20,501 nt of DNA from a virus. Positions within the stretch are counted from its first letter, which is position 1. Every line of letters begins with the position of its first letter. The stretch spans positions 1 through 20,501 of the IMG/VR virus record IMGVR_UViG_3300039045_000082, one strand, 5' to 3'. Below the pieces are notes generated by a model. That model was not told the DNA's origin. It saw only the letters and a program-made list of their open reading frames with translations, and ran no database searches. The position numbers and the translations under genes were made by a program. This document shows, one piece after another, positions 3 through 19,795 of this stretch.

Positions 3-74
3 AATACAAGTGGATCTCGTGAGTTAGCATGCACTGCAGATGCCTGCGAAGTCGTGGACTTGAGTGCAAGCTGA
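3..74 (+). CDS. C-terminal end of a cut-off upstream gene (unidentified)
   Basis: An open frame enters from the left edge and stops at TGA (72-74), followed in frame by a second TGA (75-77). The last 23 residues end ...ELACTADACEVVDLSAS. The stop overlaps the ATG at 74 of the next gene (TGATG), the usual sign of two genes read as one translational unit, which is the main reason to believe the frame is real. The tail holds two cysteines in a C-x4-C arrangement close to the C-terminus. Ribonucleotide reductase large subunits also end in such a redox pair, and they are common in marine phages beside nucleases, but so short a fragment cannot establish this. Product left unassigned. Confidence 0.45.
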   Translation, partial: NTSGSRELACTADACEVVDLSAS

Positions 75-559
75 TGATAGAGATACCGATCAATGACGAC
101 TATATGAACCGTGCGAGGGAAAAAGCTTCTACTGTGGGCATATTGCAGGGAAGTATTACAGGTGGCACTAGCAACGTTGTAGGTGCGATAGGTGAGTTAG
201 TCGTTGCTGATAGTATTAATGCAAAGCAAATAAATACATACGATTATGATCTAGTTAAGGATGGGATGCGTATAGATGTTAAGACCAAGCGTTGCAACTC
301 TAAACCACAACCCCACTATGATTGTTCTGTAGCGTTGCATGGAACTAAACAAGATTGTGATGCGTATGTGTTTGTTCGCATACTTACAGATTTAACAAAG
401 GCTTGGATTCTTGGTGGCATCTCCAAGCATAACTTTTACAAAGAAGCTACCCTATACAGAAAAGGGGATATTGATTATAACAACGGCTATACATTCAAAG
501 CCGACTGTTACAATTTACAGATAAGTCAGTTGAGTCCTTGCCATGAAATCAAAAACTAG
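74..559 (+). CDS. PD-(D/E)XK-superfamily nuclease-like phage protein
   Basis: A 161-residue protein with the layout of a small PD-(D/E)XK nuclease. A Gly-Ala-Ile-Gly-Glu motif (E41) lies in the first helix, followed by a Tyr-Asp-Tyr-Asp-Leu strand (D57/D59) and then Ile-Asp-Val-Lys (D68, K70) on the next strand; these are the expected metal-binding and catalytic residues. The rest alternates beta strands and short helices, as in single-domain phage endonucleases used in DNA repair, recombination or host DNA degradation. An in-frame ATG at 29 exists, but the start at 74 is chosen because it overlaps the upstream stop (TGATG) and the added residues are Cys/Arg-rich and unlike the rest. It probably belongs to the replication arm. 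The exact substrate cannot be told. The fold call is by motif, not alignment. Confidence 0.68.
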   Translation: MIEIPINDDYMNRAREKASTVGILQGSITGGTSNVVGAIGELVVADSINAKQINTYDYDLVKDGMRIDVKTKRCNSKPQPHYDCSVALHGTKQDCDAYVFVRILTDLTKAWILGGISKHNFYKEATLYRKGDIDYNNGYTFKADCYNLQISQLSPCHEIKN

Positions 560-767: not shown

Positions 768-1079
768 TTATTTTCTGCCTTCAAACTTCTTGATAGCACC
801 ACCAAGATTATAACCCATACCAAATTTCTTTTGTTGAGTCATCATGCCCATACCGTCACTCATTTTAGGTGTCATTACTCCCTGAGATTTATTTTGCTCA
901 GCAAGTCCACCTAACATCATAGGCTTTCTTATATTGCCACCGTACGCAACGGACTTACGTTGTCCGTTATTGTATTCTTTTTTACCACTTTTTTTCTTGG
1001 CCGCAGTAATTATGTCACCTCTTGTTATTTTGTTAGGATCACCATACATTGCAGCTAATTCTTTATTTTTTTGTTTCAT
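768..1079 (-). CDS. Small basic Met/Gly-rich phage protein, last gene of the late operon
   Basis: A 103-residue, strongly basic protein with no recognised family. The N-terminal half is Lys-rich with an 'AAKKKSGKKE' stretch. The second half is rich in Met and Gly (GMGMMTQQKKFGMGY) and ends in GGAIKKFEGRK. Low-complexity basic tails of this type are frequent in marine phage virion operons and could bind DNA or RNA, but no function can be assigned. The start is well supported: an AGGAGA ribosome binding site (1085-1090) overlaps the stop codon of the preceding 1573-aa gene and lies 5 bases before the ATG. Its stop faces the stop of the + strand gene with only three bases between them. Confidence 0.7.
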   Translation of the reverse strand: MKQKNKELAAMYGDPNKITRGDIITAAKKKSGKKEYNNGQRKSVAYGGNIRKPMMLGGLAEQNKSQGVMTPKMSDGMGMMTQQKKFGMGYNLGGAIKKFEGRK

Positions 1080-1089
1080 TAATTTCTCC

Positions 1090-4000
1090 TTATTTGAGTG
1101 GATTTAAAGACACCCCTTCTAAGGGTATTTGATCATCGTATTGAGTAAAGGTTGCTTTATAATCTTTGTCGTTAAGATATAAATCTTGTTCAGGATATAC
1201 TCTTTCTTTTAGCTCTTGATTAACTTTAAATAAAGCTGTTGTCAAAGCGTTGAAAAATTGAAGTTCTTTTTCACCAGATAATGGTTTACCTGATTTAACA
1301 GTTTCTAAAAACAACTGTGCAGCATCTTCATTTTCGATAATAGCTTTGAAAAGTTTATGTCCTTTCAATCTGAATTGTTGTAGAACAGCTTCAGTTCCAA
1401 CATATCGTGCAGATATAACACCTCTGTTTATAGAATAGAATCTACTAATGTAACTTTCAACAGAAAAGTTTCTTGGTATACCTGTCACGTTTGCAGCCAT
1501 CTTTTCGTCATTAAATTTTTCTGAAGCAAATTTAACAAGAGCATCAAATCGTTTAAATCTTTTTTCACCAATAATCTCTTTTACCATTTCACGTCTATTT
1601 GGGTCATCAAAGCCGATCAAATCTTTTAATCTATCCATGTTCATATTAACGTCAGGTATTATGTTCTCTGCATTTTCAACAGTCATAGTGCCAGTTGGTG
1701 TAAAACTTTGATTAAGTATATCTTCTAAGTAAGCTTCTGATACTAAATCATCTATTTCTTGTTTTGTTTTTTTACCACCATAAAATTTTAAAAGACCATC
1801 TTTTACTTCTCTAAGTCTTGTTGGATTCTCTGTCATTGCTTGTGCTAAACTATTTCCCTTTTTTACATCAAAAGGCATAACACTTCTTAATTTTCTTTGT
1901 ATATCTTTTAAATCATTTATCTCACTGGTTACTTTTGCTGTTTGCGTTCGTGCTAAAAACTCAAGCCTATTGCCCATATTCACATAGTTTCCCTCAATTA
2001 TATCTGCTCTAACATTGGATGGTGAAAAAGAAAATATATCTTTTTCTACTTTTTGTGCATCAATTAAAGTAACTTTTTTACCTTGATCATCTACGGCTGT
2101 GAAAGCTTCTTGAATTTTTAATAATTTTCTACGATACTCTGGATTATTTATACGACCTTGATCGGCAACTTGTTCTATGTATTGAGCCATTTTAAGCTCA
2201 AGAATACTTTTTAAAGATTTACCTGCAGGAGAATTTACATTAATACTGTATTGTCTATTTTTATAATCTCCAACCAATTTGTAAAAATCATCCTTAAACT
2301 CCAACATTCTGTCAGGAGTAAGATTAGATATCTTTTCAAAATCAAACCAAGTATGAGGAGAATTACCAAATGTTAAACCTGACGGTGCGTTTTTGTTTGG
2401 TTCAACTTTGTTTCTACCTTTAAATAATTTGTTATAATTAGTTGTGTTGTCAAAATATCTATTCATATATGTTTGATGTTTTGTATCTGCATCTTGTAAA
2501 ATATTTTTAACTGGTATTAATGAATCTGTTTTAGAGTCCTTTATAAATAAATCACCAACAAACTCACTGTTTTCTTCACCAAAGTTTATTTTAAATTCAC
2601 TAAATTTATTAGTTGATTTGTTTTTTAAATTTGAAAAAGCATTTGAAAGTCTACCACCACCTTGAGCCAATCTGTCAAAGTATTTATTTTGCAACCTAGA
2701 AAAAGCAGATTTTATGTCTTTTAATTGATCAAAATTTAATGGCAATGAATCTAGTTCAGAACCTATTTCTTCACCTTCTTTTCTTAATATGTACACAGCT
2801 TGTAAAGACTTTGGCAGATAATTTATTTTATTTAACAATTCAGGACTTGCATCTAATATAATATCATTCACAAACTCTTTTACACTTTCTGTGGCTCTGC
2901 CTGCATCAGCTAATTTACTGTGTAACCTATTTAAAGTTTCTTCGGCAGCAACGTTAAATCCTTTAAATATTTGGGATTGTAAAGTAGAACTAATAGTATT
3001 ACCTGCCGCTGCTTTAAAAAACTCTGTTTCATCTTTGGGTATGTTTTCAATAAAACCTTCTAGTAGATCCATACCTTCCACTTGAGCGTTTCTTCCCATG
3101 ACTTTGCGACCACTAGAATAAAACTCTGATTTGTCTAAAAGATTATAACCTGCACTTACATTTGCATTTTCAAGATGCCTTTTGTTTTCTACAAATGCAA
3201 CTAACAAATCACCAGATGTATCATACGTTGGGGAGTCAGCATTATATCTTTTAGTTTCTTTTTCAAAGTTTTTAACTTGTCTTTTTGCGTTTTTTAATCT
3301 AGTTGGTATTCTTAACTGTTTGGCTTTTGTTTCTAGTGTTTGATTTATTTCGTCATCTATTTTTTTGTTAACAGTTTCAATATCTGTTAAATTGTTAAAA
3401 TCTAATTTTCTAACACCAAGTTTATAAGTCCTACTATATGATGTGCTTATATCCTCTGCATCTATAGGACTATCTTGAACATTACCACTAGAGTTTAGTA
3501 TGGCTGATTTAATTTTGTTTTTTTGATGTCTATCTATTACATCTAAATCATTTGTTAAATTTTGTAGCCTTTTCTCTCCGTAGTTTATTGCTTCGTTAAA
3601 AGTATTAATTAATTTGGTTGATGCTTCTGTGTTATTATCCTTTGTCAATGCAGTTATATTTTGCACAGCACCCTTTAATTCTTGAATAGTTTTTTGTTTT
3701 AAGTCTTGTATTGTACTCAAATCTTCAACAACACTGCCAAAATTTTTAACCTTTTTCAGAGATATATCTATTCTAGATGTCTCTTCTAAACTTTGTAGTA
3801 TGGCTAAATTAGACATTTTAGCAAAACTCATTTTCAAAACATCATCAGATACACCTAAAGATTTCATTTCTTGTTGTAAACCATCAATGTATTTTATTCT
3901 TGTTTGTAATTTTTGAGCAAATTCAGGAGAGAACGTATTTACTCTTTTAGCTAACTCTTCAGCTAAATTTAATTGTTTGTTATCAAACCCCATATAATTT

Positions 4001-5811
4001 GCAACACCTCGCATCTTTCCAATAAAGAATCTACTATTGGATGTCATAGCTAAAGTTAGACCAGTCAGTAATCCTATCATTTCAAACACTTGAGGATCAC
4101 CACTTTCAGTCTCTTGACCAAGTTGACCCATAGTGCTTGCACCTATGATCATGTATTTGTTTTGTTTAGATATATCTCTAATAAATTTTGGAACTGTTGA
4201 TTCTACTATAGTGGCATGTAATTCATCTTGAGCATTTTGTATTTGTCTATCTAACAAACCTATACTTTTTTCTTGTTGTAAAGTCTTTGCTTTGCCTTCT
4301 AAAGTATCTACAAAATTTTCTCTTTGCTTTAATAATCTTTCGTGAGTGTTAAATGCGTTAACAACGTCTGGTCTATTTCGTAAACTTTTAGCAGCTTCAT
4401 CTATTTGTAGTCCTTGAATTATTTGAGGACCTGTACGCATACCATTAATAAATTTAAATACTTTACCTGCTATAGGCAAATTTCCTACTTGAGCATCGTT
4501 GTAAAAAGGCAGACCACCTCTTTTATAATCAGCAAACTTGTTAAATAACTCAGCATCATTAAGAGGTTTAACATTATCCTCTGTTTCTCTAGCTTTTTGT
4601 TCAGCAACATATCGTTTGTATTGCTTCAATGTTTTTTTACCAAAGAACATGGTTACTTTTTTTGCAATCTCACTAGGAACTCCTATCTCTGTGGCTTGAG
4701 CGATGGCTCTAGGAGCAGTAGAACTAAACATAGATGCAAGAAGCTCTGCTGTGCCTAAATCTATTTTTATATTTTTATCTGCAAATCCGTCTTGAATTAT
4801 TGCGGCTTGCATAGGTGCTATCATATCATAAAAATTAACACGACTTACAGTGTCAGCAATCCCTGTTTTGAACGGAATATCTTCATCTTTTAAATTTTTA
4901 CCCAGAGGTGATGCTTTTATAGCTTCAGTTAAAATGTCGTAAGTTTCACCTGCTATGAATATAGGAGCTTCAATCCCAAATCGAACTCCTCTTCTGCCAT
5001 ATCCCATTATGTTTTGTAAGTCAGCAAATTTGTTTGCCATTCTTTCTTTAAGTATTCCGTACCTTTGTCTGCTATTCAAACCTGCGTTAGCTAACACTTT
5101 ATCGTATTGTTTTGCTAATCTTATTAAAGCTCCATCGGAATCAAAGTTAGTTCCAAGCATAGCATCTAAAGTTACTCCAACTTTTGTTCCTTTCATAAAA
5201 GGAGCTAATCCAAAAAAGTCACCTAATCTGCCTTGATCTTCACTTATTTTTCTTCTTGGTAAATCACGAGTTGCTTCCATTTGTAAAGGGAATTGCATTT
5301 GAAACAACATTTCTGTTCCTGAAGGAGGTGGTTTCTTTTCTTTAAAAAATTCTTGTATGCCCACATCATAAGGTATGGGTACAAGATCAGGTTTGTCGTT
5401 TTCATCTAAAAAAACAAAATGAGTTGCACCTGCTAAATTCATTGATCTAATTTTTGTATCAACGTCTATATCTTGTGATTTTTTAAAGTCACTTATATCG
5501 CCTGAAAAAGGAATGTAATTAAAATTACCATCAACATCAACGATGTCACCCACTTCATCTTTTGTTCTGTATCCTATGAATCCTGCTATCTCTTTTCTCA
5601 TTTCTGGATTGGTTGTATTATAAACATCCTCTATCTTTACGAACTCTTGTACTTTTGTAGGATCTACAGTGATGTCTCGCTTTATAACAGATGAGGTTCC
5701 GGGTATTATTCCTTTTTCAAATGTTTTGGTAACACCAGTTATAGCTTGTGATTTATTAAAACCTAAAAAATCACCTGAAGTTTTAACTACTTTGTTAGAG
5801 TCTTGTTCCAT
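1090..5811 (-). CDS. Giant putative internal virion / ejection protein (1573 aa)
   Basis: No family recognised. About 1573 residues, mostly charged and helical, Lys/Asn/Glu-rich. The N-terminal part (about 1-300) looks globular. A Gly-rich hydrophobic stretch at about 552-598 (MIIGASTMGQLG..., then FEMIGLLTGLTLAM) is the one place that could insert in a membrane. Residues about 610-1050 are rich in amphipathic, coiled-coil-like helices. Its position at the end of a T7-like virion operon, its extreme length and its helix content match the role of T7 gp16-type ejected proteins, which form a conduit for DNA entry. This is inference from context. I looked for a transglycosylase-type Glu-Ser/GLMQ signature as in T7 gp16 and found none. 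An AAGGT ribosome binding site precedes the ATG. The gap to the 1032-aa gene is 15 bases, the largest in the operon. Confidence 0.72.
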   Translation of the reverse strand: MEQDSNKVVKTSGDFLGFNKSQAITGVTKTFEKGIIPGTSSVIKRDITVDPTKVQEFVKIEDVYNTTNPEMRKEIAGFIGYRTKDEVGDIVDVDGNFNYIPFSGDISDFKKSQDIDVDTKIRSMNLAGATHFVFLDENDKPDLVPIPYDVGIQEFFKEKKPPPSGTEMLFQMQFPLQMEATRDLPRRKISEDQGRLGDFFGLAPFMKGTKVGVTLDAMLGTNFDSDGALIRLAKQYDKVLANAGLNSRQRYGILKERMANKFADLQNIMGYGRRGVRFGIEAPIFIAGETYDILTEAIKASPLGKNLKDEDIPFKTGIADTVSRVNFYDMIAPMQAAIIQDGFADKNIKIDLGTAELLASMFSSTAPRAIAQATEIGVPSEIAKKVTMFFGKKTLKQYKRYVAEQKARETEDNVKPLNDAELFNKFADYKRGGLPFYNDAQVGNLPIAGKVFKFINGMRTGPQIIQGLQIDEAAKSLRNRPDVVNAFNTHERLLKQRENFVDTLEGKAKTLQQEKSIGLLDRQIQNAQDELHATIVESTVPKFIRDISKQNKYMIIGASTMGQLGQETESGDPQVFEMIGLLTGLTLAMTSNSRFFIGKMRGVANYMGFDNKQLNLAEELAKRVNTFSPEFAQKLQTRIKYIDGLQQEMKSLGVSDDVLKMSFAKMSNLAILQSLEETSRIDISLKKVKNFGSVVEDLSTIQDLKQKTIQELKGAVQNITALTKDNNTEASTKLINTFNEAINYGEKRLQNLTNDLDVIDRHQKNKIKSAILNSSGNVQDSPIDAEDISTSYSRTYKLGVRKLDFNNLTDIETVNKKIDDEINQTLETKAKQLRIPTRLKNAKRQVKNFEKETKRYNADSPTYDTSGDLLVAFVENKRHLENANVSAGYNLLDKSEFYSSGRKVMGRNAQVEGMDLLEGFIENIPKDETEFFKAAAGNTISSTLQSQIFKGFNVAAEETLNRLHSKLADAGRATESVKEFVNDIILDASPELLNKINYLPKSLQAVYILRKEGEEIGSELDSLPLNFDQLKDIKSAFSRLQNKYFDRLAQGGGRLSNAFSNLKNKSTNKFSEFKINFGEENSEFVGDLFIKDSKTDSLIPVKNILQDADTKHQTYMNRYFDNTTNYNKLFKGRNKVEPNKNAPSGLTFGNSPHTWFDFEKISNLTPDRMLEFKDDFYKLVGDYKNRQYSINVNSPAGKSLKSILELKMAQYIEQVADQGRINNPEYRRKLLKIQEAFTAVDDQGKKVTLIDAQKVEKDIFSFSPSNVRADIIEGNYVNMGNRLEFLARTQTAKVTSEINDLKDIQRKLRSVMPFDVKKGNSLAQAMTENPTRLREVKDGLLKFYGGKKTKQEIDDLVSEAYLEDILNQSFTPTGTMTVENAENIIPDVNMNMDRLKDLIGFDDPNRREMVKEIIGEKRFKRFDALVKFASEKFNDEKMAANVTGIPRNFSVESYISRFYSINRGVISARYVGTEAVLQQFRLKGHKLFKAIIENEDAAQLFLETVKSGKPLSGEKELQFFNALTTALFKVNQELKERVYPEQDLYLNDKDYKATFTQYDDQIPLEGVSLNPLK

Positions 5812-5826
5812 GCTTTACCTTATTTT

Positions 5827-8800
5827 TTAATTTTTGGGTTGATTAATAAATTCAAGAAGTCTTTTTTGTTTTTGGGCCGCAGATTTACTTACTTTACCAG
5901 TTGTTTTTTTAGCTGTTCCTCTATAATCAAATGGAACATTTTTTAATTTATTCATAATAAAATCTCTTCTCATTCCAACTGTTAACTTAGGATTTTCTAT
6001 ATTATAAGACAACATAACACCACCACTTTGATCATTTAAATTTGTCATAAGTATTTGTCTAGCTTTTAGTGCAGCAAACTGTTTATTTGGCTGTGTGCTT
6101 TGTCTCAACGCACTATTGTAATCATATATCTGCACTAACATATTTCTAGCTTCTTTTAAAGTGGCTACTTCATAACGAGCATCTGTAAAAGTTCCAAAGT
6201 TCAAAGCTGTAAGTATGTTTTGAACGTCTTGGTCAGATATGGTTCTACCACCTGTTCCACCCTGTATGGCTGCGGCAAGTTGATAAGCAAGCATATATTT
6301 GTGATATTGACGTATGGCTAATTTACGTAATATTTCTTTGGTAACTTGTTTATTTTCAAATTGTCTACGCAGAGACTCAGGCATGTATTTTGAAAATGCA
6401 GTAAACGCTTCGTAGTCACCACTCATTAGTCTTTTTATATTATTAAATTCTTCTTCATTGGCTTTTCTTGCAGCTCGTTCTTTTTCATCATCAGGGTTTT
6501 CCATATCGTATACTGATGATTGATTCACTAAGGATGAATTTATTTCGTCAATATCTGCCGTTGCTAAATCAACAAAACTTTTACCACCTGTAAGAAAGTT
6601 AAAACCTTTATTTAAAACTTTAGCACCACCTGCAAGTGTTGTAATTATTTTACCTTGAACAGAGTTAATATCTATAAATCTTTTTTGACCATCAACCATA
6701 ACTTCGTATGTGCCAAGTATGGAGTCTATTGTAGTAATACCATTGTATGATGATGTCTCTTTGCCTTCTAAATCCATTTGAACTTTTTGACTATTTAAAC
6801 TATCTCCGTAAGTACCGTTTATTAAGTTTTCTGTAGTCTCTCCTGTCGCATCAACAAACTGTTCAATTAAATTAGAAGTTTTCTTAAAATTTGCTCTTGT
6901 TAGTAAAGCTATTTTTCTTTTAACAAGCTTTTCAACATTTGGATTCAGACTGCCAGATAACGGAGCTTGATCAGGAAACGGAGATACTATATTTATAAAA
7001 GCATCAAACAGTGTAGCAGGTCTACCTTGAACAGTTAAATTAGGTATTTGTGAACTTTCAAGTTGCATTATAAAATCTAATTCTGGTTGCACTTTAGCAG
7101 GCACTAATCTAAAAGTACCATCTCCTTGATCTTCTTCTATGGGTAAGCCAGTAACCTCATCTACTTCATACCTTATAAGACTAGAAGCCAACTTTTGTAT
7201 ATTCTCTGCTCCACCCACATGAGCATTGCTTATGGCTTCCATTATTCTCGGCATAATTTTATTATATTTTTTATTGTAAGGAGCGTTAAAAAATACAGTT
7301 CCCTTTTCTCCATTCTGTTCAACTTTAAGTTGAATAACTAATCCATCTTCGTTTGGTTTTTTTAAGTTATTTGTTTTAAATTGTTCAACCATTCTAGCAG
7401 AAACCATATCCGATGCTTGAGCAGCTATACCATTCATACCTAGCACGCCTTTTATTTTTGCTAACTGTTTAAAATTTTGAGCAACTTTGTCAGAAGCATC
7501 TTGTGGACTTGCAGGTTTATTTGGTGCAAATATTCTTTCACCTTGTTTTATTGGAGGTTCAAAATATGTTTCTAAATTATTTAAAATTTCAGTTTGAAAT
7601 CCTTGTAGTTTGGTGGGGTCGTTATTAATTTGAGCTATTACAAATGGGTTTTTTGCTAAAAAAGCATCTACTTTAGTTAAATTTTCAACTCCCATTTTAT
7701 TAGTTGAAAAAGAAGTTCCCACAAACTTGTTTTTAAAATTACCTGATAACTTTTCACCTGTATCAAAAAGGTATGAAGAAGATACATTTTCTGATTCCAT
7801 AGCTGTTTCCACTGCTTTTTTAGAACCTGTAGCAGTGTAAGGCTCATAGGCTTGTGGCTCACCCTTTTCATTGAAACGTTGTCTACCCACAAGTCTTATT
7901 TCTTGACCTTTGTTTTTTCTCTCTATGTATTCTTTTTGTGTGACTGATGCTGCTTTTACTTTACCATCTTCCATAAATTCTATGTCAAACATTATTTTAG
8001 CTTGACTCTCTGGTATAGTTTTTGCAAGATCGATAGCTACAGGAGGTTCGACTGCTTCTTCCCTACCGTCTGGAAAAACCCTAACTTTTTGATAAAAATC
8101 AGCATTAACTTGACTATCTAATCTAATTCCAATTTTACCGTCTTTAGTGGAGCTAAAAAATATAGTTTTAGGAACTGGATCACCCTGCTTAAAAGGTTCT
8201 GTTTTAATTATTACTTTTTTATTGTTTACAGTTTTAAACGTTTGTACAAACAAAGCTTCTTTAGGATTGGTTGTTGGATTATTATCTTTATCTAAAAGTT
8301 GTTCTTCTTCAATTAAATCTGCAACTTTAGTTTTCTCTGGTTTTTTTAAAAGTTCTGGTAGGGTAACTTCTATGTTACCATCTGTGTCCTCTGTTAATAA
8401 CTGATTATGAGTTGCAGGCTTTTTACCGTCTGTTTTAAAATTATTATTATTGTCATAATAACCACTTACAACTTTTGTTTTTTTCGTAGCTTTTTTTTCT
8501 TTTGTTTGATTAAAAAAATTATCGTCAATTTCAAAAAGTTCGTTGTTTGGGCCTCTTTGTGCCACTAATTTAACTAGGGGTTTTGATTTAATATCTGGGA
8601 TATTTTTGTCTTGTAAATACTTATTATATCCTTCTTGAGTGATTGTTTTTCCTTCAATATACGGATGTGCGTAAATATCTGTTCTGCTTTTATCTAAAAC
8701 TTCTGATTTCGTAAATTTACCTTGAAACATAAATCCGTGATGTGTTTCATCACTTTTTAATTTGTAGCCTGACGGCATAGGAAAAATGCCTTTTGATTTA

Positions 8801-8925
8801 CTAAAACCAAAGTTCGTTACTGCGTTTTTTTGTTTTTCTACTGCTGCAGCATTTGCTTTTAATCTATTAGATTTTATTTTAGTGGATGCTGCATAAGCTC
8901 CTAATAATAAAAGATCAGCTATCAT
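5827..8925 (-). CDS. Large putative internal virion protein (1032 aa)
   Basis: No family firmly recognised. The N-terminus is a short hydrophobic segment (MIADLLLLGAYAAS), then a Lys/Asn-rich region to about residue 200 with low-complexity stretches. The middle is beta-rich and the C-terminal third is helical. A motif at about 880-902 (AYQLAAAIQGGTGGR followed by ISDQDVQ) is the most conserved-looking part and resembles motifs I associate with large phage virion proteins. The last 30 residues are basic. The start overlaps the end of the 188-aa gene by 11 bases and follows an AAGGAG ribosome binding site inside that gene, so the two are probably translationally coupled. With the 1573-aa product it makes a pair of giant proteins at the operon end, most likely core/ejection proteins. 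Confidence 0.72.
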   Translation of the reverse strand: MIADLLLLGAYAASTKIKSNRLKANAAAVEKQKNAVTNFGFSKSKGIFPMPSGYKLKSDETHHGFMFQGKFTKSEVLDKSRTDIYAHPYIEGKTITQEGYNKYLQDKNIPDIKSKPLVKLVAQRGPNNELFEIDDNFFNQTKEKKATKKTKVVSGYYDNNNNFKTDGKKPATHNQLLTEDTDGNIEVTLPELLKKPEKTKVADLIEEEQLLDKDNNPTTNPKEALFVQTFKTVNNKKVIIKTEPFKQGDPVPKTIFFSSTKDGKIGIRLDSQVNADFYQKVRVFPDGREEAVEPPVAIDLAKTIPESQAKIMFDIEFMEDGKVKAASVTQKEYIERKNKGQEIRLVGRQRFNEKGEPQAYEPYTATGSKKAVETAMESENVSSSYLFDTGEKLSGNFKNKFVGTSFSTNKMGVENLTKVDAFLAKNPFVIAQINNDPTKLQGFQTEILNNLETYFEPPIKQGERIFAPNKPASPQDASDKVAQNFKQLAKIKGVLGMNGIAAQASDMVSARMVEQFKTNNLKKPNEDGLVIQLKVEQNGEKGTVFFNAPYNKKYNKIMPRIMEAISNAHVGGAENIQKLASSLIRYEVDEVTGLPIEEDQGDGTFRLVPAKVQPELDFIMQLESSQIPNLTVQGRPATLFDAFINIVSPFPDQAPLSGSLNPNVEKLVKRKIALLTRANFKKTSNLIEQFVDATGETTENLINGTYGDSLNSQKVQMDLEGKETSSYNGITTIDSILGTYEVMVDGQKRFIDINSVQGKIITTLAGGAKVLNKGFNFLTGGKSFVDLATADIDEINSSLVNQSSVYDMENPDDEKERAARKANEEEFNNIKRLMSGDYEAFTAFSKYMPESLRRQFENKQVTKEILRKLAIRQYHKYMLAYQLAAAIQGGTGGRTISDQDVQNILTALNFGTFTDARYEVATLKEARNMLVQIYDYNSALRQSTQPNKQFAALKARQILMTNLNDQSGGVMLSYNIENPKLTVGMRRDFIMNKLKNVPFDYRGTAKKTTGKVSKSAAQKQKRLLEFINQPKN

Positions 8926-9481
8926 CAGAATCTACTCCTTGCTCTTCGTCTTGAACATTAAGAAACCCACCCTCGTCATCGTCTACGCCTTCTATCATAG
9001 TTTCTGCTTTTTTCATTGCAAACTCTTCTTCTAATCTTGCTTCTTCATTTATTTGTTCATTCATGACTTTAAACATTTCAGGGTTTCTTTGTTTCATTAT
9101 TGAAAAGAATGTTTCATCAGAGACTTGAGGTTCTTGTTCTTCTTCTATGAATAATCTAGGAGTAAACCCATTGTCTATTGATAACTTCAAAAGATACATA
9201 GCTAATGCAGGTTTTATTAATTCTGCTACATCAGGATTAAATGTTCCTTGCATAAAACCTTTAAAAGATATTTGATTCACTATTTCTTCTATTGTTATGC
9301 CTGCAGTCATCATTCTTAACATATCTCTTTGTGGGATTGTTCTGTCTAATTTTTCTGTAATAAAATCTATGGCATCGTTTGGATCAGAAAATCTAGGGGG
9401 TTGCTCCCACGCCCACTTGCCCGGTTCTCCTGTTAAAGAATGACCGGGGGGTGCAGACATTGCTTTTATTTTATCTAACAT
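8915..9481 (-). CDS. Conserved marine-phage virion-operon protein (188 aa), function unknown
   Basis: The N-terminal segment has a Pro/Trp-rich motif (SLTGEPGKWAWEQPPRF) followed by DPNDAIDFITEKL. I have the impression of similar motifs in other marine phages, without an assigned function. Residues about 50-110 are helical (IPQRDMLRMMTAGITIEEIV). The C-terminus, from about 110 on, is very acidic and ends in a DDDEGG...DSDDS tail. Such acidic tails are found on phage assembly or chaperone-like proteins and on proteins that contact basic partners; the neighbouring giant proteins are Lys-rich, so a partner role is possible but unproven. An AGGT ribosome binding site lies just upstream, 7 bases after the preceding stop. 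Its 3' end overlaps the start of the 1032-aa gene by 11 bases. Confidence 0.68.
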   Translation of the reverse strand: MLDKIKAMSAPPGHSLTGEPGKWAWEQPPRFSDPNDAIDFITEKLDRTIPQRDMLRMMTAGITIEEIVNQISFKGFMQGTFNPDVAELIKPALAMYLLKLSIDNGFTPRLFIEEEQEPQVSDETFFSIMKQRNPEMFKVMNEQINEEARLEEEFAMKKAETMIEGVDDDEGGFLNVQDEEQGVDSDDS

Positions 9482-10014: not shown

Positions 10015-11358
10015 TTATGTAAATATGTTGTCTATAGTTTTTATAATTAAAAAATCGTCAAATTTACTATCATACAAATCTGATCTCTCTGATATAGCCG
10101 CAGCCTGCATGGCCGCATTGTGGGCCCGATCTAAGTTGTTTTCACTTGTTTGCATACTCCAAGCTGCTTGATCTCTATATAATTGCCATAGATTGTTTTG
10201 TGCTAATTGAGACATATTTAATAATGATTGTAAGTTTGTTCTATTTTCTTCATTTTGTGTAGCCGTGTTCGCTGTGTTGATAGTTCTTCTCCAAACAGCA
10301 TTTGATGCGTCAATTTGTCTGCGTGCATTTGAGTTAAATGTTTCTCTTTGTGAAACCATTTGTGCATTGAATTGATCTACGGCTGTAGCTTGTGATATAT
10401 TAGCTTGTTCAAGAGCAACATTTCTATTTAACGCTGTTGTTTCAACTTGTGATCCCAACTCTGCAAAAAACTGATCAATTTCGTTTTGTGTTTTTGCATT
10501 GAACTGTTTGGCCGCATTGTCTGACGCTGCATCAGTAAACAAAGAACTGGTTGTTGTTTGAAAATCTATTGTAGCTTTTTGCTGTGCATTTGTTAAATTT
10601 TGCATATCCATAGCAAGAAACGTTTTTGCATTATTGACGGCTGCAGCTTGCCTATTATTTAAATTAGCCATATCCATAGATGCAGTAGTTGTTGCATTTT
10701 GTAATGCAGCCTGCTGTCTATTATTTAAATTTTGCAGTTGTATTGCACCATATTTGTTTGCGTCTTGTGCAGCGATCGGTATACCTGCTTCGTATACAGC
10801 TTGTGTTATTGCTGACGCAGCCATACTAGAAGAACCTAATCCTCTTTGTGCCATGATTGCTGATACTTTACGAACAGCAGGAGATGCCCATGCAGGTAAT
10901 TCTGTTCCTTCTTCTATACCTTTGAATAACTCTGCCATCTGGTATTTGACGGTAGCTCTTACATCTAATTCTTCTGTGGCTGCAGTGGCTAAAGCACCTT
11001 CTGATAATGAACCTTGTGCTGCATCAATTACAGCTTTATCAGATACTTCACCTGTGACTTTTTTTACTTCACCAATCTTACCGACTTGCGTAGCATCATA
11101 CTTTGGTGCTGTTGTTTTTTCAGGAGAGTCCTGTTGAAAATCTTTAGGATCTAATTTTTTAGGATCATCTATTCTTATATCTGGAATGTCATAATCTTTA
11201 CTTTTTAGAAGTTCATCATCCTTAACTTCTCTTTCTTCTAAATCTAATGTTTGTGACGGTTTTAAAGTATCTTGATCGGCTTTACCTGCTTGTTGTTGCA
11301 GAATAGCTTTCTCAAGTTCTTTTCCAGTTTTACCTTTTAACTTGTCATCTTCAGCCAT
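10015..11358 (-). CDS. Ala/Gln/Asn-rich putative internal virion protein
   Basis: A 447-residue protein. The first 100 residues are charged and Lys/Asp-rich (probably flexible). From about 115 on it is Ala/Gln/Asn/Thr-rich and predicted to be long helices. A segment at about 156-200 (AWASPAVRKVSAIMAQRGLG, then SSSMAASAI and PIAAQDAN) is of a type I associate with internal virion or ejection proteins of marine podoviruses. Residues 206-271 are three 22-residue repeats, each with an N-L-(N/T)-N-x-Q core. The rest is further coiled-coil-like sequence. The role is inferred from composition and position after the fibres. A GGAAG ribosome binding site precedes the ATG, which overlaps the stop of the membrane protein gene by one base (TAATG). 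Confidence 0.72.
   Translation of the reverse strand: MAEDDKLKGKTGKELEKAILQQQAGKADQDTLKPSQTLDLEEREVKDDELLKSKDYDIPDIRIDDPKKLDPKDFQQDSPEKTTAPKYDATQVGKIGEVKKVTGEVSDKAVIDAAQGSLSEGALATAATEELDVRATVKYQMAELFKGIEEGTELPAWASPAVRKVSAIMAQRGLGSSSMAASAITQAVYEAGIPIAAQDANKYGAIQLQNLNNRQQAALQNATTTASMDMANLNNRQAAAVNNAKTFLAMDMQNLTNAQQKATIDFQTTTSSLFTDAASDNAAKQFNAKTQNEIDQFFAELGSQVETTALNRNVALEQANISQATAVDQFNAQMVSQRETFNSNARRQIDASNAVWRRTINTANTATQNEENRTNLQSLLNMSQLAQNNLWQLYRDQAAWSMQTSENNLDRAHNAAMQAAAISERSDLYDSKFDDFLIIKTIDNIFT
10546..10743 (-). repeat. Three degenerate 66-bp (22-residue) coding repeats
   Basis: Residues 206-227, 228-249 and 250-271 of the Ala/Gln-rich protein line up as three units with the pattern (I/M)(Q/D)(L/M)xNL(N/T)Nx(Q)xAA..., i.e. 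a 66-bp period. The units are divergent in DNA but clear in protein. The repeat fits a long amphipathic helix lengthened by whole units. Confidence 0.6.
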
Positions 11359-11594
11359 TATCTACTTCCCATCAATACTTTGTCTAACTTATCTTCTAAT
11401 CTTCTTAGTGCATCCATCAACTCATGCACATCATCTTTTACATCATCTTTACGTGCATACTCTTCTCGTGTCTTGTTAAGGAGTATTTGTATTCGTTTTA
11501 CCTCTTGGAACATCTTATTAAATGCCCAACCAAATGGTACAACGACCATAGTCAGGATTATGTTCCAAAATAACATTGGGTCAATGCTTTCCAT
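11358..11594 (-). CDS. Small membrane protein with coiled coil (holin/spanin-position candidate)
   Basis: A 78-residue protein: one transmembrane segment near the N-terminus (about residues 7-25, MLFWNIILTMVVVPFGWAF) followed by a charged coiled-coil-like tail with QILLNKTREE and LMDALRRLEDKLDKVL. Small proteins of this design sit after tail-fibre genes in many marine phages; in T7 the holin (gp17.5) also follows the tail fibre. A lysis or membrane-anchoring role is therefore possible, but holins usually have a shorter cytoplasmic part, and no lysis partner is visible here. The start at 11594 is preferred over an in-frame ATG at 11621 because it lies 5 bases after the upstream stop, has GTGGAT 7 bases before it, and excludes residues that would overlap the fibre gene. 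It ends in a 1-base overlap with the next start. Confidence 0.68.
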   Translation of the reverse strand: MESIDPMLFWNIILTMVVVPFGWAFNKMFQEVKRIQILLNKTREEYARKDDVKDDVHELMDALRRLEDKLDKVLMGSR

Positions 11595-12895: not shown

Positions 12896-14203
12896 TTACC
12901 CTTTCAATGCTTTTACTTCTGCTTCAAGTGTTTCTATTCTTGTAAGTGCTTCTTGTAATGTCTTTGTTAGAAGAGGAACTAAAAATCCGTGGTCAATACC
13001 TTGTGCTATAATTGCATCTTCTTCATCAACTGCATCTTTAACTCCACTTACTGCATTTGGTACAACTGATTCCACTTCATGTGCAAGAAAGCCATCAACT
13101 GTTTTGTCTGGTGTAACCTTAAAATTAAATCTAGCAGGTTTTAGTTGTTTTAGTCTTGATGTAGCATCAAAATCGTAATTTACATTTTCTTTAAGTCTAT
13201 AATCAGATGATGTTTGGTAGGCTGTTACATTACTTGATGTTGTAATTATTTGACCACAAGTGATTGCAGTAGTATCATTACCCCCTGATTGTCTAAAAAA
13301 CTTTATCATATCTTCATCACTAGATGCAGAGGTTTTAAAAACACCTAAATTGTAACTTCCAGTTCCTTGTATTCTACTTCTTCCATTGTTATCTACTAAG
13401 AATCTTACATTTCCATCTCCATCTGATAAAACAATGTAATTATCTGCTGTCCGTAAATCATAACCATCTTGATTACCATCATATTTACCAATAAATGTAT
13501 TCTTATCACCATTAGTTACTGCACTTCCTGCACTATGTCCTATGAATACATTTTGGTCACCTACATTTGCAACTCCTGATTGATATCCTATGTAAGTATT
13601 TTTACCATTAGTTGTAATAGCTTTTCCTGCTTCAAAACCCACTGCTGTATTATCATCTGCTGTAGTAATTGCTGTTCCTGCTTCATCTCCAACTACAGTA
13701 TTGTAATTACCACCACTTTGTATAGCATCTCCTGCATTTTCACCTATTCTTACATTAGACGTACCACTTGTAGATGTAATTATTTCACCACTAAATGTAG
13801 CATTACCTGTAACTCCAAGTGTTCCTGCAGCAGTTGCATTACCTGTCAGTGCTGTTGTTCCTGTCACTGCAAGTGTACCACCCATAGTAACGTTACCATC
13901 AAACGTACCACCATCTGCTTTACTTACAGTGTCTGCTACCGAGAACACATCAAATACCACAATGACCACGAGGTCACTTGCAGTAGCTCCTGTGCCTAAT
14001 ACTATTGATGTACCACTTGTTGCAGTGTAGTCTGCATCACCTAACTTTACACCATTTTGGTACACATCTACGAAGTTACTGTCTTTGTAACTTAAAGATG
14101 TACCCTCTGCACCTGCACCACTGAATGTGGTCTGCGATGCTGTGGCAGTGTAGGTGTGAACCCTACGAACTCCATTAGATGGACTGACTCCTATGTATGC
14201 CAT
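12896..14203 (-). CDS. Tail fibre with YadA-head-like stalk and C-terminal S74 self-cleaving chaperone
   Basis: A 435-residue fibre. Residues 1-92 form an N-terminal beta domain starting MAYIGVSPSN, related in pattern to the fibre at 15006-16190. Residues 95-140 are short TxxxTG beta repeats. Residues about 151-240 hold five to six 16-17-residue units of the type NTxxGxxAGxAIT, like the left-handed beta-roll of YadA-type trimeric adhesin heads. The C-terminus is a peptidase S74 intramolecular chaperone: TSSDYRLKEN with the Ser333-Asp334 pair, then GFLAHEVESVVP, VPLLTKTLQEAL and a coiled-coil end. In this family the chaperone drives trimer folding and is then released by self-cleavage before the serine, leaving a fibre of about 332 residues. 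A CAGGGG at the end of the preceding gene is the ribosome binding site; gap 3 bases. Confidence 0.88.
   Translation of the reverse strand: MAYIGVSPSNGVRRVHTYTATASQTTFSGAGAEGTSLSYKDSNFVDVYQNGVKLGDADYTATSGTSIVLGTGATASDLVVIVVFDVFSVADTVSKADGGTFDGNVTMGGTLAVTGTTALTGNATAAGTLGVTGNATFSGEIITSTSGTSNVRIGENAGDAIQSGGNYNTVVGDEAGTAITTADDNTAVGFEAGKAITTNGKNTYIGYQSGVANVGDQNVFIGHSAGSAVTNGDKNTFIGKYDGNQDGYDLRTADNYIVLSDGDGNVRFLVDNNGRSRIQGTGSYNLGVFKTSASSDEDMIKFFRQSGGNDTTAITCGQIITTSSNVTAYQTSSDYRLKENVNYDFDATSRLKQLKPARFNFKVTPDKTVDGFLAHEVESVVPNAVSGVKDAVDEEDAIIAQGIDHGFLVPLLTKTLQEALTRIETLEAEVKALKG
13484..13753 (-). repeat. YadA-head-like beta-roll repeats in fibre stalk
   Basis: Residues about 151-240 of the fibre repeat every 16-17 residues with a Thr/Val-Val/Ile-Gly-x-x-(A/S)-G core (for example TAVGFEAGKAI, TYIGYQSG, VFIGHSAGSAV). 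Repetition is at protein level; the DNA copies have diverged. It predicts a trimeric left-handed parallel beta-roll. Confidence 0.75.
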
Positions 14204-14514: not shown

Positions 14515-15006
14515 TTATACTTTAAATATTACAGTTGCAAAAGCATCGGCGTTTCCGTTATTAAATTTATTTACATGAGTTGACCCAGACCCTGCATCAT
14601 CAAGAGATTCGATAAATGACATGTAAGTTTGACCTGCATTTATAAATATATTATAATTAAAACATGCTGATTCTACATCTATTAAATTAACTGTGCATGA
14701 ACCAGAACCATAAGAACCCGATTTTGGAGTAAATGGTGAACCTTGTAAATAAAGAGTTGTAGCACCTGTCAAACCAGTTGTTGTAATATTTATAAGATTT
14801 ATATTTAAAATTACAGTGTCACCAATTTTTGTGTAAAAATTTGTTTGTGTTACTGAACCAGTATTTCCACCACTTGTTGCATCTGATACTGTTAAATCAA
14901 AAGTGCCTTCTTCATAGTCGTCTAAAGTATTAGCAGTACCTGAACCACCTATCTTGATGTCAGTTACTTGACCAATACCATCTCCTATTACTCGTGTTAA
15001 TGCCAT
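14515..15006 (-). CDS. Small free-standing fibre-tip-like structural protein (163 aa)
   Basis: A 163-residue beta-rich protein. After a short N-terminus (MALTRVIGDGIGQVTDI) it contains TANTLDDYEEGTFDLTV, and later NFYTKIGDTVILNINL. The 'YEEGT(F/W)xxTv ... YTKIGdxV' pattern is common at the C-termini of phage tail fibres and receptor-binding proteins, where it forms a beta-sandwich tip. Here it stands alone, with no shaft or N-terminal anchor domain, so it may attach to another fibre or be the remnant or exchange form of a fibre tip. The start overlaps the preceding fibre's stop by one base (TAATG), with GGAG upstream, so the two are translationally coupled. The family is recognised by motif only. 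Confidence 0.7.
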   Translation of the reverse strand: MALTRVIGDGIGQVTDIKIGGSGTANTLDDYEEGTFDLTVSDATSGGNTGSVTQTNFYTKIGDTVILNINLINITTTGLTGATTLYLQGSPFTPKSGSYGSGSCTVNLIDVESACFNYNIFINAGQTYMSFIESLDDAGSGSTHVNKFNNGNADAFATVIFKV

Positions 15007-16190
15007 TACTTACTCTCCAATGCTGCCACTTTTGTTTTAAGTGTGTCTATCTCTGCTAATGCTTCTTGAAGTGATTTTGTTAAAAGTGGAACTAATAAAC
15101 TTGTGTCTATTCCTTGTATAACATCTCTTGTTTTCTCATCACCATTTTCATCTGTGTATTTTTCTGTTTCATCTTTTACACCAGTAACAGCAAGAGGACA
15201 AACTTCTTGTGCTTCATGTGCTATAAAACCAGTAACCTTAACATCTGAATTTGTTTTAAAATTAAACTCACAAGGTTTTAATTTTTTAACTTGTGATGAT
15301 GCGTCAAAAGAATAATTTATATTTTCTTTTAATCTGTAATCAGAACTTGTTGCATAAACTGTATTACTTCCATTAAAACCTATACTACCTTTAGTACTTG
15401 CATCAGACAAAAACACAAAAAAGTTTTCTGTACCACTGTCATAATCTGTGAGGTTCATGAAACCCATGTTATTACCATCGTGTGCTAGTAATAATTGACC
15501 AGTGCTAGTTACTGTAGTTCCAGTGCCACTAGAAATAGCAGACAAATCTACTGTTGTAGTGCCTATCATTACATTGCCACTGTTGTCTATTCGCATACGT
15601 TCTGTATTATTTGTAGAAAATGTCATGGCAGCATTAGATGTATTATTTAGTTCTAATTGTCCACTTGAAGGTACAGAAATAGTAGATGTTCCAGAGCCAG
15701 TTCTTTCTAGTTTTATTTGTAAGTCAGATGATTTTTCAAGGTGTATATCACTGTCTATAGTTGTAGCACCTATTCCTAGCTTTCCTCCCAAACTAACATT
15801 TTCATCACTATCTATAGTTATGGCAGTTGCATCAGCATTATCATCTATACCGAGTGAGGTAAATGCACCTGTAAACGTACCTGTTGTCGCAGTCAACGCA
15901 TTGTTACTCGGATGACTTACTGTACCTACTGTTCTAAACAAATAATACACAAAGATATTATTACCTGAGTTACTTGATGGTGCAGCAGTAAATGTAAGTG
16001 TAGTTCCACTGCTCACTGCGTATGCTACAGATGGTTCTTGTATAACACCATCTACAGATACAAGTATGTCCTCATCAGAACCTACTGCATGGTCTAATGT
16101 AAATGCAGTTGTAGAACCATCACCTGAAAATACAGATGCTGCTTTGGGTGCTACAAATCTATTGGATGGGTCATTACCGATGTATGCCAT
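15006..16190 (-). CDS. Tail fibre with C-terminal S74 self-cleaving chaperone
   Basis: A 394-residue fibre. The N-terminal domain (1-90) starts MAYIGNDPSN and ends IFVYYLFRTVGT, a beta domain found at the start of many marine phage fibres and probably its attachment part. The shaft (about 95-275) is Ser/Thr/Asn-rich beta sequence with the usual TERMRIDNSGNVMIGTT phrase. Residues 281-394 are a peptidase S74 chaperone: ATSSDYRLKEN with Ser283-Asp284, LKPCEFNFK, GFIAHEAQEVCP, VPLLTKSLQEAL and a final coiled coil. Self-cleavage before Ser283 would leave a fibre of about 282 residues. Relative to the other S74 fibre in this window it carries an extra polar insert at about 341-353. The ribosome binding site GGAG lies within the last codons of the preceding gene. 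Confidence 0.88.
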   Translation of the reverse strand: MAYIGNDPSNRFVAPKAASVFSGDGSTTAFTLDHAVGSDEDILVSVDGVIQEPSVAYAVSSGTTLTFTAAPSSNSGNNIFVYYLFRTVGTVSHPSNNALTATTGTFTGAFTSLGIDDNADATAITIDSDENVSLGGKLGIGATTIDSDIHLEKSSDLQIKLERTGSGTSTISVPSSGQLELNNTSNAAMTFSTNNTERMRIDNSGNVMIGTTTVDLSAISSGTGTTVTSTGQLLLAHDGNNMGFMNLTDYDSGTENFFVFLSDASTKGSIGFNGSNTVYATSSDYRLKENINYSFDASSQVKKLKPCEFNFKTNSDVKVTGFIAHEAQEVCPLAVTGVKDETEKYTDENGDEKTRDVIQGIDTSLLVPLLTKSLQEALAEIDTLKTKVAALESK

Positions 16191-16191
16191 C

Positions 16192-16551
16192 TTATGTTAT
16201 CTCCATTATGCTCAATGTTCCTGAAATTTTATCTGCTACAGAACAGTCTACTCTTAGAAGATCTCCTGTTTCAAGTATGATCTTACCACCTGTTAATACT
16301 TCCAATGATGAACCTACAGGTATGGGTGCATCTTTAACTAAGAACGATGTTCCATTGGTTGCTGCTCTACCACCTCCTGATGTGGTGGACACAAGCTCTA
16401 CTTCTGTGGTTACTTGAGCAGTGTGTATGTTTGAGAGTACAAGTCCAATCACTACTGTAGTTGTGCTACCCGGAACTGTATATATCGTATACGGAGAACC
16501 TGCACTGTTTGGCTCGGCAGCGAATGTGACTACTTTAAATGTATTTGCCAT
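16192..16551 (-). CDS. Small structural protein of the tail-fibre cluster (119 aa)
   Basis: A 119-residue beta-rich protein: MANTFKVVTFAAEPNSAGSP, then TIYTVPGSTTTVVIGLVLSNIH, a GGGR turn, and ILETGDLLRVDCSVADKISG near the C-terminus. The alternating hydrophobic strands and the absence of helices suggest one beta-sandwich. I have the impression of similar small proteins in other marine phage tail operons, where they are usually called structural without further detail. It lies between the repeat fibre (4-base gap) and the first S74 fibre (1-base gap), so a fibre adaptor or decoration role is plausible. AGGAT 9 bases before the ATG serves as ribosome binding site and overlaps the tandem TAA TAA stops of the fibre. 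Confidence 0.66.
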   Translation of the reverse strand: MANTFKVVTFAAEPNSAGSPYTIYTVPGSTTTVVIGLVLSNIHTAQVTTEVELVSTTSGGGRAATNGTSFLVKDAPIPVGSSLEVLTGGKIILETGDLLRVDCSVADKISGTLSIMEIT

Positions 16552-16555
16552 GTTA

Positions 16556-18268: not shown

Positions 18269-19795
18269 TTATCTTCTAGCTCCTAGTTGATACTCTAACT
18301 GAAATCCTTTTAACGAATAAGGTGCAGTTGTTCCCCCATCATTCACTCGTAAAGCTACTGCAAATCCAGATCCTTCTACTGGTTGTCTTACGAGAGGTTG
18401 TGTTGCACCACCATACGTTCCTGACGCTGAAGTGCTTACACCATATGTGCTTGTTCCATATATTGCAGCAACATCTTCAGAATCTAAAGCGTAAGCTGCA
18501 GGTCGTGCTGAGTCTTTACTTTCATAATCATATCTAACAAACAAGTCTGCATCTATAGATGATTCAGGTGCATAGTTTACTATGACCCTTTGCATATTTT
18601 TTCGTATCCCCGGATCGTTCATTGTAAGATCTGGACTACGGTATCTTCCCAAAATAGCAGTGCCATCAAAATCGTTGCCTGACTCTTGTCTGTACACAAA
18701 TCCATCTCCTGATCCGTGTATAGCTATCACATCTCCTGAAGATACAAATGTATCTGTGGCTGTCGGTCTTATGCCTTTCATTTCTGCAAACTCAAACTGT
18801 TGACCTCTAAGCACACAAATTACACCTTTTGTTAAAGTTTCACCTTGACCACTTTTTGTAAAAAATATTCTGTATTGTGTTTTGTTAGGTATTACGATTG
18901 ACGTAAAATTACCAGAGTCAGATAAGTTGGCATCAAACAAGCTTTGTACGTTAGAACTTATTGTACCCAACTCAACGTCACCAATTCTTGCAGTACCTGC
19001 GATGGTGCGTAATCCGTCAGGACCTAAGAATATAAGGTCACCTGCAAATTCCTGTATAGTTTGTCCGTTTACACAACCTATGTTTCTTGTTACAGGTTTG
19101 ACTGCAAAGTCAGATAGTGATGATCCAGTAAGTTGAAATATTCTGTTTTCGCAAAAGATAAACAAATTATCACGGAATACTTTGAGTCCTGTCACAGTAT
19201 CGTCAACTTTGATACTACCTGCACCAGACCCACTATTAAACGCATCTTCATCAAACGGTTGGCTAAACACAACCTCTTGTGGTGTGCTTGACTTGCCTGC
19301 ATAGAACATGTGATCTTTAAATGCAGTTACAAACTTTGCACCAGACACAGAACTCTCACTTACATCCGTTGCACTAAATGATGAGTTAAACACTGTCGGT
19401 GCGTTTGCACCGTCTGCAACAATTAATTTATCGTTGCCATCAAAGTTAAATCTTTGAAATGTGTACTTGCCTGCACTACTTCTACCAGTATCTCGCTCTG
19501 TCCAACTTGAGCCACCGGGGGTAGCACTAAATATCTTTTCACCTCTCGCTGCAACAACACTCGATCCAAATGTTGCAACCATCAAAACCTCTTCACTTGA
19601 TGAACTTGTCTGTGGCACAACTGCTGTTACGTATTTGCTAAAGCCAGTTATTCTTCTGTAGCCACCTTCGATGTCAGGCTCAAAATTAAGAAGCTCAAGT
19701 GCTTGACCGGGTTTCATTATGAACGTAGATTGATTAAGGACTAACCCACCTTCACATACAAATGGAAACGCACCTGTCTGACTTAACTCTGGCAT
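18269..19795 (-). CDS. Tail nozzle/hub protein (T7 gp12 / P22 gp10-like beta-propeller)
   Basis: A 508-residue, nearly all-beta protein. Repeated blade-like strands alternate with loops: EEVLMVATFGSSVVAARGEKIF (about 68-89), NDKLIVADGANAPTVF, KDHMFYAGKSS, FRDNLFIFCENRIFQLTGSS (about 207-226) and EFAGDLIFLGPDGLRTI. This is the pattern of beta-propeller tail hub/nozzle proteins. The C-terminus YSLKGFQLEYQLGARR is also typical. It directly follows the adaptor gene, as gp12 follows gp11 in T7 and gp10 follows gp4 in P22. At 508 residues it is shorter than T7 gp12 (794) and near P22 gp10 (472). It should sit at the tip side of the adaptor ring and close the DNA channel. The ATG overlaps the adaptor's stop by one base; the ribosome binding site is weak, so coupling probably drives translation. 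Confidence 0.78.
   Translation of the reverse strand: MPELSQTGAFPFVCEGGLVLNQSTFIMKPGQALELLNFEPDIEGGYRRITGFSKYVTAVVPQTSSSSEEVLMVATFGSSVVAARGEKIFSATPGGSSWTERDTGRSSAGKYTFQRFNFDGNDKLIVADGANAPTVFNSSFSATDVSESSVSGAKFVTAFKDHMFYAGKSSTPQEVVFSQPFDEDAFNSGSGAGSIKVDDTVTGLKVFRDNLFIFCENRIFQLTGSSLSDFAVKPVTRNIGCVNGQTIQEFAGDLIFLGPDGLRTIAGTARIGDVELGTISSNVQSLFDANLSDSGNFTSIVIPNKTQYRIFFTKSGQGETLTKGVICVLRGQQFEFAEMKGIRPTATDTFVSSGDVIAIHGSGDGFVYRQESGNDFDGTAILGRYRSPDLTMNDPGIRKNMQRVIVNYAPESSIDADLFVRYDYESKDSARPAAYALDSEDVAAIYGTSTYGVSTSASGTYGGATQPLVRQPVEGSGFAVALRVNDGGTTAPYSLKGFQLEYQLGARR

Follow-up and report, generated by a model that had tools for sequence, protein, structure and literature searches.

A three-gene unit for candidate ejection proteins closes the structural operon of an uncultured HMO-2011-type podovirus

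Background

The ejection genes of podoviruses form a small operon, in which a gp14-like gene for a protein of about 200 aa lies beside a gp15-like gene and a larger gp16-like ORF follows. Of these proteins gp14 is the best conserved; gp15 and gp16 are matched between phages mostly by size and synteny, their sequences diverging beyond detection. A hydrolase domain in ejection proteins is optional and phage-specific, and swaps between members. In T7, helices are enriched in gp15 and make up most of gp16 (PMC8954989 for all of these points). Another kind of giant phage protein, the polyvalent protein, also adjoins virion genes and is thought to be injected (PMC5512222). The HMO-2011-type phages are among the dominant, broadly distributed marine viral groups (PMC9038755). 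In the literature we found, the passage of their DNA through the envelope is not described, and our search did not find virion proteomics for them.

The window and its phage group

We analysed the 20,501 bases of IMG/VR record IMGVR_UViG_3300039045_000082. This whole stretch, referred to here as the window, is a fragment without DNA polymerase and portal genes. Its structural genes include:

19795-20481, minus strand: SU10-type adaptor, 228 aa (PF24175 SU10_adaptor, E 3.5e-21)
18269-19795, minus strand: tail nozzle-like protein, 508 aa, 58% identical to gp44 of Puniceispirillum phage HMO-2011
10015-11358, minus strand: 447-aa virion-module protein, upstream of the triad described below, with homologues in 27 phage records
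9489-10004, minus strand: 171-aa protein with a hydrophobic N-terminus, between the 447-aa gene and the triad, 43-45% identical in the clade A loci (see below)

From its gene content we place the window in an uncultured HMO-2011-type podovirus, as the terminal part of the structural module. We do so because of the nozzle-like protein, the SU10-type adaptor, the distribution of the 447-aa homologues, and the polymerase and portal found in triad-bearing contigs. All 27 records with a 447-aa homologue belong to the HMO-2011 assemblage or its relatives, and in those inspected the gene is upstream of the triad. Nine contigs, 50-57 kb long, have the member-2 motif and the triad, and every one of them encodes an HMO-2011-like DNA polymerase (40-45% identity) and an HMO-2011-like portal (48-50% identity). 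The nozzle, 447-aa and 188-aa proteins are homologous and in the same order in the window and in HMO-2011-type phages.

The family of the nozzle-like protein (18269-19795, minus strand) has acquired several labels. PHROG 5107 and RefSeq call it 'amidase', its members in CHOED and Slicky01 carry the label 'dimodular nonribosomal peptide synthetase', and weaker PHROG matches are to head closure Hc3 and virion structural families. The enzymatic names look like annotation errors, and we have not adopted 'amidase' as the function of the 508-aa protein.

A three-gene unit ends the structural operon

A first-pass annotation had singled out two giant proteins at the end of the operon as candidate new ejection machinery. 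The two ORFs were confirmed and together occupy 7,821 nt, but the grouping was incomplete. The operon unit is one of three genes, since a 188-aa gene that overlaps the start of the 1032-aa gene had been missed; the 447-aa and 171-aa products lie upstream of this triad. Its members and their main features are:

8915-9481, minus strand: member 1, 188 aa, in the gp14-like position, homologous to the syntenic protein in cultured phages
5827-8925, minus strand: member 2, 1032 aa, in the gp15-like position (ORF, IMG/VR homologues, AlphaFold)
8827-8925, minus strand: N-terminal helix of member 2, aa 1-33, hydrophobic then charged (family consensus MxxPLLLxxYAxS...)
6226-6264, minus strand: core motif of member 2, QGGTGGRTISDQD, aa 888-900, a loop between two helices (homologue comparison and AlphaFold)
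1090-5811, minus strand: member 3, 1573 aa, in the gp16-like position (ORF, IMG/VR homologues, AlphaFold)
4018-4158, minus strand: stretch of member 3 that is rich in glycine and mildly hydrophobic, aa 552-598 (Kyte-Doolittle across homologues)
1366-1476, minus strand: C-terminal signature of member 3, PRNFSVESYISRFYSINRGVISARYVGTEAVLQQFRL, aa 1446-1482 (identity profile across homologues)

The order is thus small, medium, giant (188-1032-1573 aa) at the end of the structural operon. We compared this order with that in HMO-2011, HTVC033P, HTVC104P, HTVC115P, CRP phages, rhizobial phages, Slicky01, MQM1 and CHOED. In all cultured HMO-2011-type phages examined a protein of 160-190 aa is followed by one of 365-928 aa and then one of 817-1893 aa, ending the structural operon, and in most of them the triad faces a DNA-metabolism operon. 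The counterparts of the window's triad are gp24-gp23-gp22 in HMO-2011, gp54-53-52 in HTVC033P, gp56-55-54 in HTVC104P and the corresponding genes of Roseobacter CRP phages; their annotation in HMO-2011-type isolates does not go beyond 'hypothetical'. The window resembles these isolates in gene order, size classes, end-of-operon position, member 1, the upstream 447-aa protein and the nozzle, and related contigs add the homologous portal and polymerase. It differs from most of them in that members 2 and 3 have no detectable sequence homology to their counterparts, the only similarity being a degenerate motif in two rhizobial phages.

A DNA scan with the member-2 motif found the same triad in at least 118 IMG/VR loci; the set is widespread among ocean viruses. 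The pattern used was G-T-G-G-(R/S)-T-I-x-D-x-D, and the invariance of these residues in the 118 loci is therefore partly by construction. Complete motif ORFs in these loci are 573-1256 aa long, preceded by the small motif protein and followed, where the sequence allows, by a giant of 1373-1742 aa. An ORF of 175-221 aa lies immediately upstream of member 2 in 61 of the 63 uncultured loci with enough sequence; the exceptions are L041 and L084, where no ORF was picked in a 1-kb gap. Downstream of member 2 an ORF of more than 1300 aa was present in every one of 60 uncultured loci, with gaps mostly of -4 to +12 nt.

Conservation within the triad is uneven. Member 1 is homologous across the group, and members 2 and 3 are mostly undetectable between subgroups even in profile-profile comparison. 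Within the alignable family, dN/dS is 0.28-0.64 for member 2 and 0.11-0.45 for member 3, so both are real genes under purifying selection. They represent two new protein families, belonging to a major group of uncultured phages.

The slot between the 447-like gene and the triad takes up accessory genes, as seen in HTVC115P, where it holds a gene annotated as toxin-activating lysine-acyltransferase (L016, 11011-11460), and in CRP-603, where it holds a cell wall hydrolase (L018, 10140-11081).

The individual proteins

Each of the 17 cultured HMO-2011-type or related phages compared has a syntenic protein homologous to member 1 (blastp E as low as 1e-20; E 1e-14 to 1e-35 with a deep HMM; hhalign probability 95-99%). 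Near its N-terminus is the motif APPGHSLTxEPGKWAWEQPPRF, which across the group takes the form PxPGxSLTxxPxxxPWExPP. A hydrophobic helix at aa 85-103 (nt 9173-9229) has a Kyte-Doolittle value of 1.11 in the window, against 1.5-2.0 in the homologues. A match of member 1 to designed pentatricopeptide proteins (PDB profile, E 3e-4) was rejected as repeat-like chance, no single stretch of it passing the threshold.

Member 2 has full-length homologues at 28-34% identity in clade A (L005-L008), and IMG/VR contains more distant relatives of the window's giants at 29% identity. In clade B the relatives of members 2 and 3 are partial and consist of the C-terminal blocks (hhalign 99.1 and 94.1). Bacterial genome contigs contained no relative of member 2. 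As the first-pass annotation had observed, the protein begins with a short hydrophobic segment, MIADLLLLGAYAAS, which is kept in the family; several cultured counterparts and P22 gp20 have a similar N-terminus. The same annotation had also pointed to a conserved-looking motif, AYQLAAAIQGGTGGR. Conserved it is, but it is part of a longer motif, RKLAIRQYHKYMLAYQLAAAIQGGTGGRTISDQDV, which is invariant in close homologues at 29-35% protein identity. This motif belongs to a near-invariant helix-loop-helix core, AYxLAxxxQGGTGGRTISDxD. Evidence for its conservation that is free of the bias of the motif scan comes from the preceding Q-G, from retrieval by other patterns and from a scan based on member 3. 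The core motif is invariant in member-2 homologues found by criteria other than the motif scan. In the scan with the member-3 signature, 22 of the 33 visible upstream proteins have the exact core and others have natural variants of it, among them QGGSGGRTISDQD, QGGTGGRTVSDQD, QGDSSGRTISNQD and GGTTVRLSDGD. The degenerate cores of the two rhizobial phages are GINGRDMSDKD in phiM6 and a form at the aligned place in RHph_I3_11; when the member-2 proteins of the 17 isolates are shuffled, 0.015 occurrences of the loose pattern that matches RHph_I3_11 are expected. A literature search for the motif letters found nothing.

The length of member 2 varies mostly N-terminal of the core; in complete proteins the motif lies at residue 431-1075 and is usually followed by a tail of 134-200 residues. 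AlphaFold (35-row alignment, mean pLDDT 74) predicts an N-terminal helix at 3-33, a beta-rich region at 37-410, a confident alpha/beta region at 411-760 and a helical part at 792-962, within which the core motif is a loop joining two helices.

Member 3 has homologues 29-48% identical over nearly the full length (40-48% in clade A), in a family of 1373-1742 aa. Its invariant C-terminal block is ESxxSRxYxxxRGVxSxxYVxTE. Identity to the window at aa 1451-1475 averages 72% across 50 divergent homologues, compared with 4-39% elsewhere in the protein. A search for this signature gave only chance matches to cyanophage portal proteins (E>=0.7). An AlphaFold model of aa 380-1573 (36 rows, mean pLDDT 72) is nearly all alpha-helical.

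The first-pass annotation had described aa 552-598 of member 3 as a Gly-rich hydrophobic stretch. It does have seven glycines, and in 22 of the 51 family members the most hydrophobic segment falls at this site, but its hydrophobicity is mild (Kyte-Doolittle mean 0.26, with a maximum of 1.11 for the 19-residue window at 579). T7 gp16 controls reach 1.32-1.44 in their published membrane regions. With a best window of only 1.11, a transmembrane helix at this site in the window's member 3 is unsupported; the stretch is a candidate membrane-active hairpin.

Searches for known domains and folds

No match to either giant was found in Pfam and PHROG (E<=1e-3), in PDB sequences with profiles included (E<=10), or by tblastn in annotated phages, and homology searches started from clade-B and other relatives gave nothing usable. 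This agrees with the first-pass annotation, which had reported no known domain or peptidoglycan-cutting motif, and none of the Pfam, PHROG and PDB searches gave a confident match to an enzyme family. Hydrolase, polyvalent (LPD) or other enzymatic domains were absent from the window proteins and from 31 diverse family members, and the SLT family was absent from nine related contigs. Both giants were modelled singly, at moderate confidence. Foldseek found no significant match for member 2 in PDB or BFVD or for member 3 (aa 380-1573) in PDB; at E<=0.001 there was no match, the solved T7 core proteins included, and the top TM-scores were around 0.1.

In related contigs, ORFs of 467-639 aa matching Hydrolase_2 (PF07486) lie a few kb from the portal in G005 (L089), G006 (L114), G007 (L050), G008 (L080) and G011 (L076), three of the matches being above and two below the curated cut-off. 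It is possible that these ORFs encode a separate virion peptidoglycan hydrolase.

Other genes in the window

Directly after member 3 is a gene for a 103-aa Met/Gly/Tyr-rich protein (768-1079, minus strand; YNNGQRKS..YGG..RKPMMLGG). Every clade A locus retains it, at 89-105 aa and with the same repeats; in clade B this place is taken by other small ORFs. A 176-aa protein (29-559, plus strand) has only a weak match to DUF6998 (E 0.011), and its IDVKTKR stretch is suggestive of a PD-(D/E)XK nuclease-like fold. This protein and a 73-aa gene (543-764) are 53-100% identical among clade A loci, compared with 28-48% for the adjacent members 2 and 3. A 78-aa protein (MESIDPMLFWNIILTMVVVPFGWAFNKMFQEVKRIQ..., 11358-11594, minus strand) combines a coiled coil with a single strong transmembrane helix (1.85), is nearly invariant in clade A loci where visible, and is a candidate holin- or spanin-like protein. 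The tail fibre (16556-18268, minus strand) has tandem TAELNILDGVTST repeats, which seem to be the source of the long opposite-strand ORFs at 16539-17216 and 17502-17999; these ORFs look artefactual. Two fibre-like proteins (12896-14203 and 15006-16190, minus strand) carry SSDYRLKENxNYxFDAxSxxKxLKPxxFNFK near their ends, suggesting duplicated fibres; the segment is reminiscent of intramolecular chaperones of the peptidase S74 type.

Comparison with T7, P22 and polyvalent proteins

The window's triad has the small-medium-giant order after tail genes that is seen in gp14-15-16 of T7. T7 gp16 is largely helical, as member 3 is predicted to be. T7 gp15 is enriched in helices, whereas the N-terminal half of member 2 is predicted to be beta-rich. 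The N-terminal lytic transglycosylase of T7 gp16 has no counterpart in member 3, and T7 gp15 and gp16 are smaller than members 2 and 3. With P22 (gp7-20-16) the triad shares order and number and likewise the lack of a peptidoglycan hydrolase, and the Gly/Ala-rich N-terminus of P22 gp20 resembles that of member 2, but there is no sequence similarity, and members 2 and 3 exceed their P22 counterparts two- to threefold in size. In hhalign comparisons, deep alignments included, the triad matched T7 or P22 ejection proteins with a probability below 1%. At 1032 and 1573 aa the giants also exceed the published ranges of gp15-like (431-982 aa) and gp16-like (609-1337 aa) proteins, which are descriptive of 14 phages and not a strict criterion (PMC8954989). 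Because neither sequence nor fold comparison gave a match, the two giants cannot be classed as T7 gp15/gp16 homologues, and we regard them as probable counterparts of gp15/gp16 by position. The earlier suggestion of a conduit different from that of T7 gp15/gp16 holds only as an absence of sequence and fold similarity, and such proteins normally diverge beyond detection (PMC8954989).

The LPD38-type polyvalent proteins are, like the window's giants, giant, unannotated and adjacent to virion genes, and one positional counterpart of member 3 has this domain; the window's family differs in having no LPD or enzymatic domain.

Candidate ejection function and alternatives

We propose, with a probability of roughly 0.8, that 8915-9481, 5827-8925 and 1090-5811 encode ejection (internal virion) proteins of an HMO-2011-type podovirus. 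Of the claims of the first-pass annotation, ejection machinery is, for the unit extended to three genes, the best-supported reading. It rests on the gene order, the size classes, the convergent gene neighbourhood, the virion-lysozyme and LPD38 domains at the same locus, and the fit of the triad to the published operon description of podoviral ejection genes (PMC8954989). These domains are found in proteins at the member-3 position. HTVC104P gp54 has a C-terminal lysozyme (1469-1634) that includes the PHROG 'internal virion lysozyme motif', HTVC115P gp40 has an endolysin domain (1431-1584), and HTVC033P gp52 has the phage-only polyvalent domain LPD38 (E 1.3e-23); the Slicky01 equivalent matches two 'virion structural protein' PHROGs. 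The proteins with hydrolase or LPD38 domains are linked to the window's member 3 by position, not by sequence, and the window's clade has neither domain. As positional equivalents they lend support to virion packaging and injection of the triad. Weighing against the ejection reading are the lack of a strong transmembrane segment in the window's member 3, the absence of sequence similarity to T7 or P22 ejection proteins and, for the two giants, to most cultured counterparts, the absence of a fold match to solved structures, and sizes above the published ranges.

Member 3, and perhaps member 2, might instead be an injected polyvalent effector that acts in the host cytoplasm and forms no channel. 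Its great size, the LPD38 domain of HTVC033P gp52 and the precedent of giant polyvalent proteins beside virion genes (PMC5512222) are consistent with this. We consider it unlikely, since the 31 diverse members and the window proteins have no enzymatic or polyvalent domain and the near-universal co-occurrence of the three genes argues for one structural assembly. Still less probable is that the triad proteins belong to the virion but are retained in the particle, as an internal core, tail hub or fibre-linked scaffold. The operon shared with the tail nozzle, adaptor and fibres would suit such a role, as would transmembrane segments below normal strength, but in T7 and P22 the slot after the tail genes, with its small-medium-giant order, holds ejected proteins (PMC8954989), and the virion lysozymes of the HTVC104P and HTVC115P equivalents imply contact with peptidoglycan. 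That the genes encode late non-structural factors, for example in lysis or assembly, deserves hardly any credence. In its favour, the window's own sequences match no known virion protein; against it speak the operon position, the matches of positional equivalents to the PHROG families 'virion structural' and 'internal virion lysozyme', and a separate lysozyme gene elsewhere in five of nine related contigs.

If the triad encodes ejection proteins, we infer their virion location, ejection, exit order and compartments by analogy with T7 and P22. Within the capsid the proteins would be packed close to the portal, and they would exit through the tail. At adsorption the 188-aa protein would go first and insert its hydrophobic helix into the outer membrane, the 1032-aa protein would carry the channel on across the periplasm, and the 1573-aa protein, which is largely helical, would cross to or through the inner membrane and help to draw in the DNA. 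We speculate that members 2 and 3 dock through their invariant C-terminal blocks to a conserved partner, which may be each other, the portal or the tail nozzle; the remainder of both proteins diverges fast.

A more specific version is tentative and, on balance, doubtful. In it the triad would be an ejectosome with middle and large components that either originated independently of the T7 and P22 ones or have diverged from them too far for structure to reveal a relationship. Member 2 would act in the periplasm as a beta-rich component whose C-terminal anchor (QGGTGGRTISDxD) is fixed and whose N-terminal part varies in length, and member 3 would be a helical giant docked by its invariant C-terminal block.

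Conclusions

Our analysis gives testable assignments for three gene families in more than 100 uncultured phages and pinpoints two near-invariant blocks within them. The triad bears on the question of whether podoviral ejectosomes are of one ancestry or have been assembled more than once. If the more specific version were true, a very common group of uncultured marine phages would be using this ejectosome.
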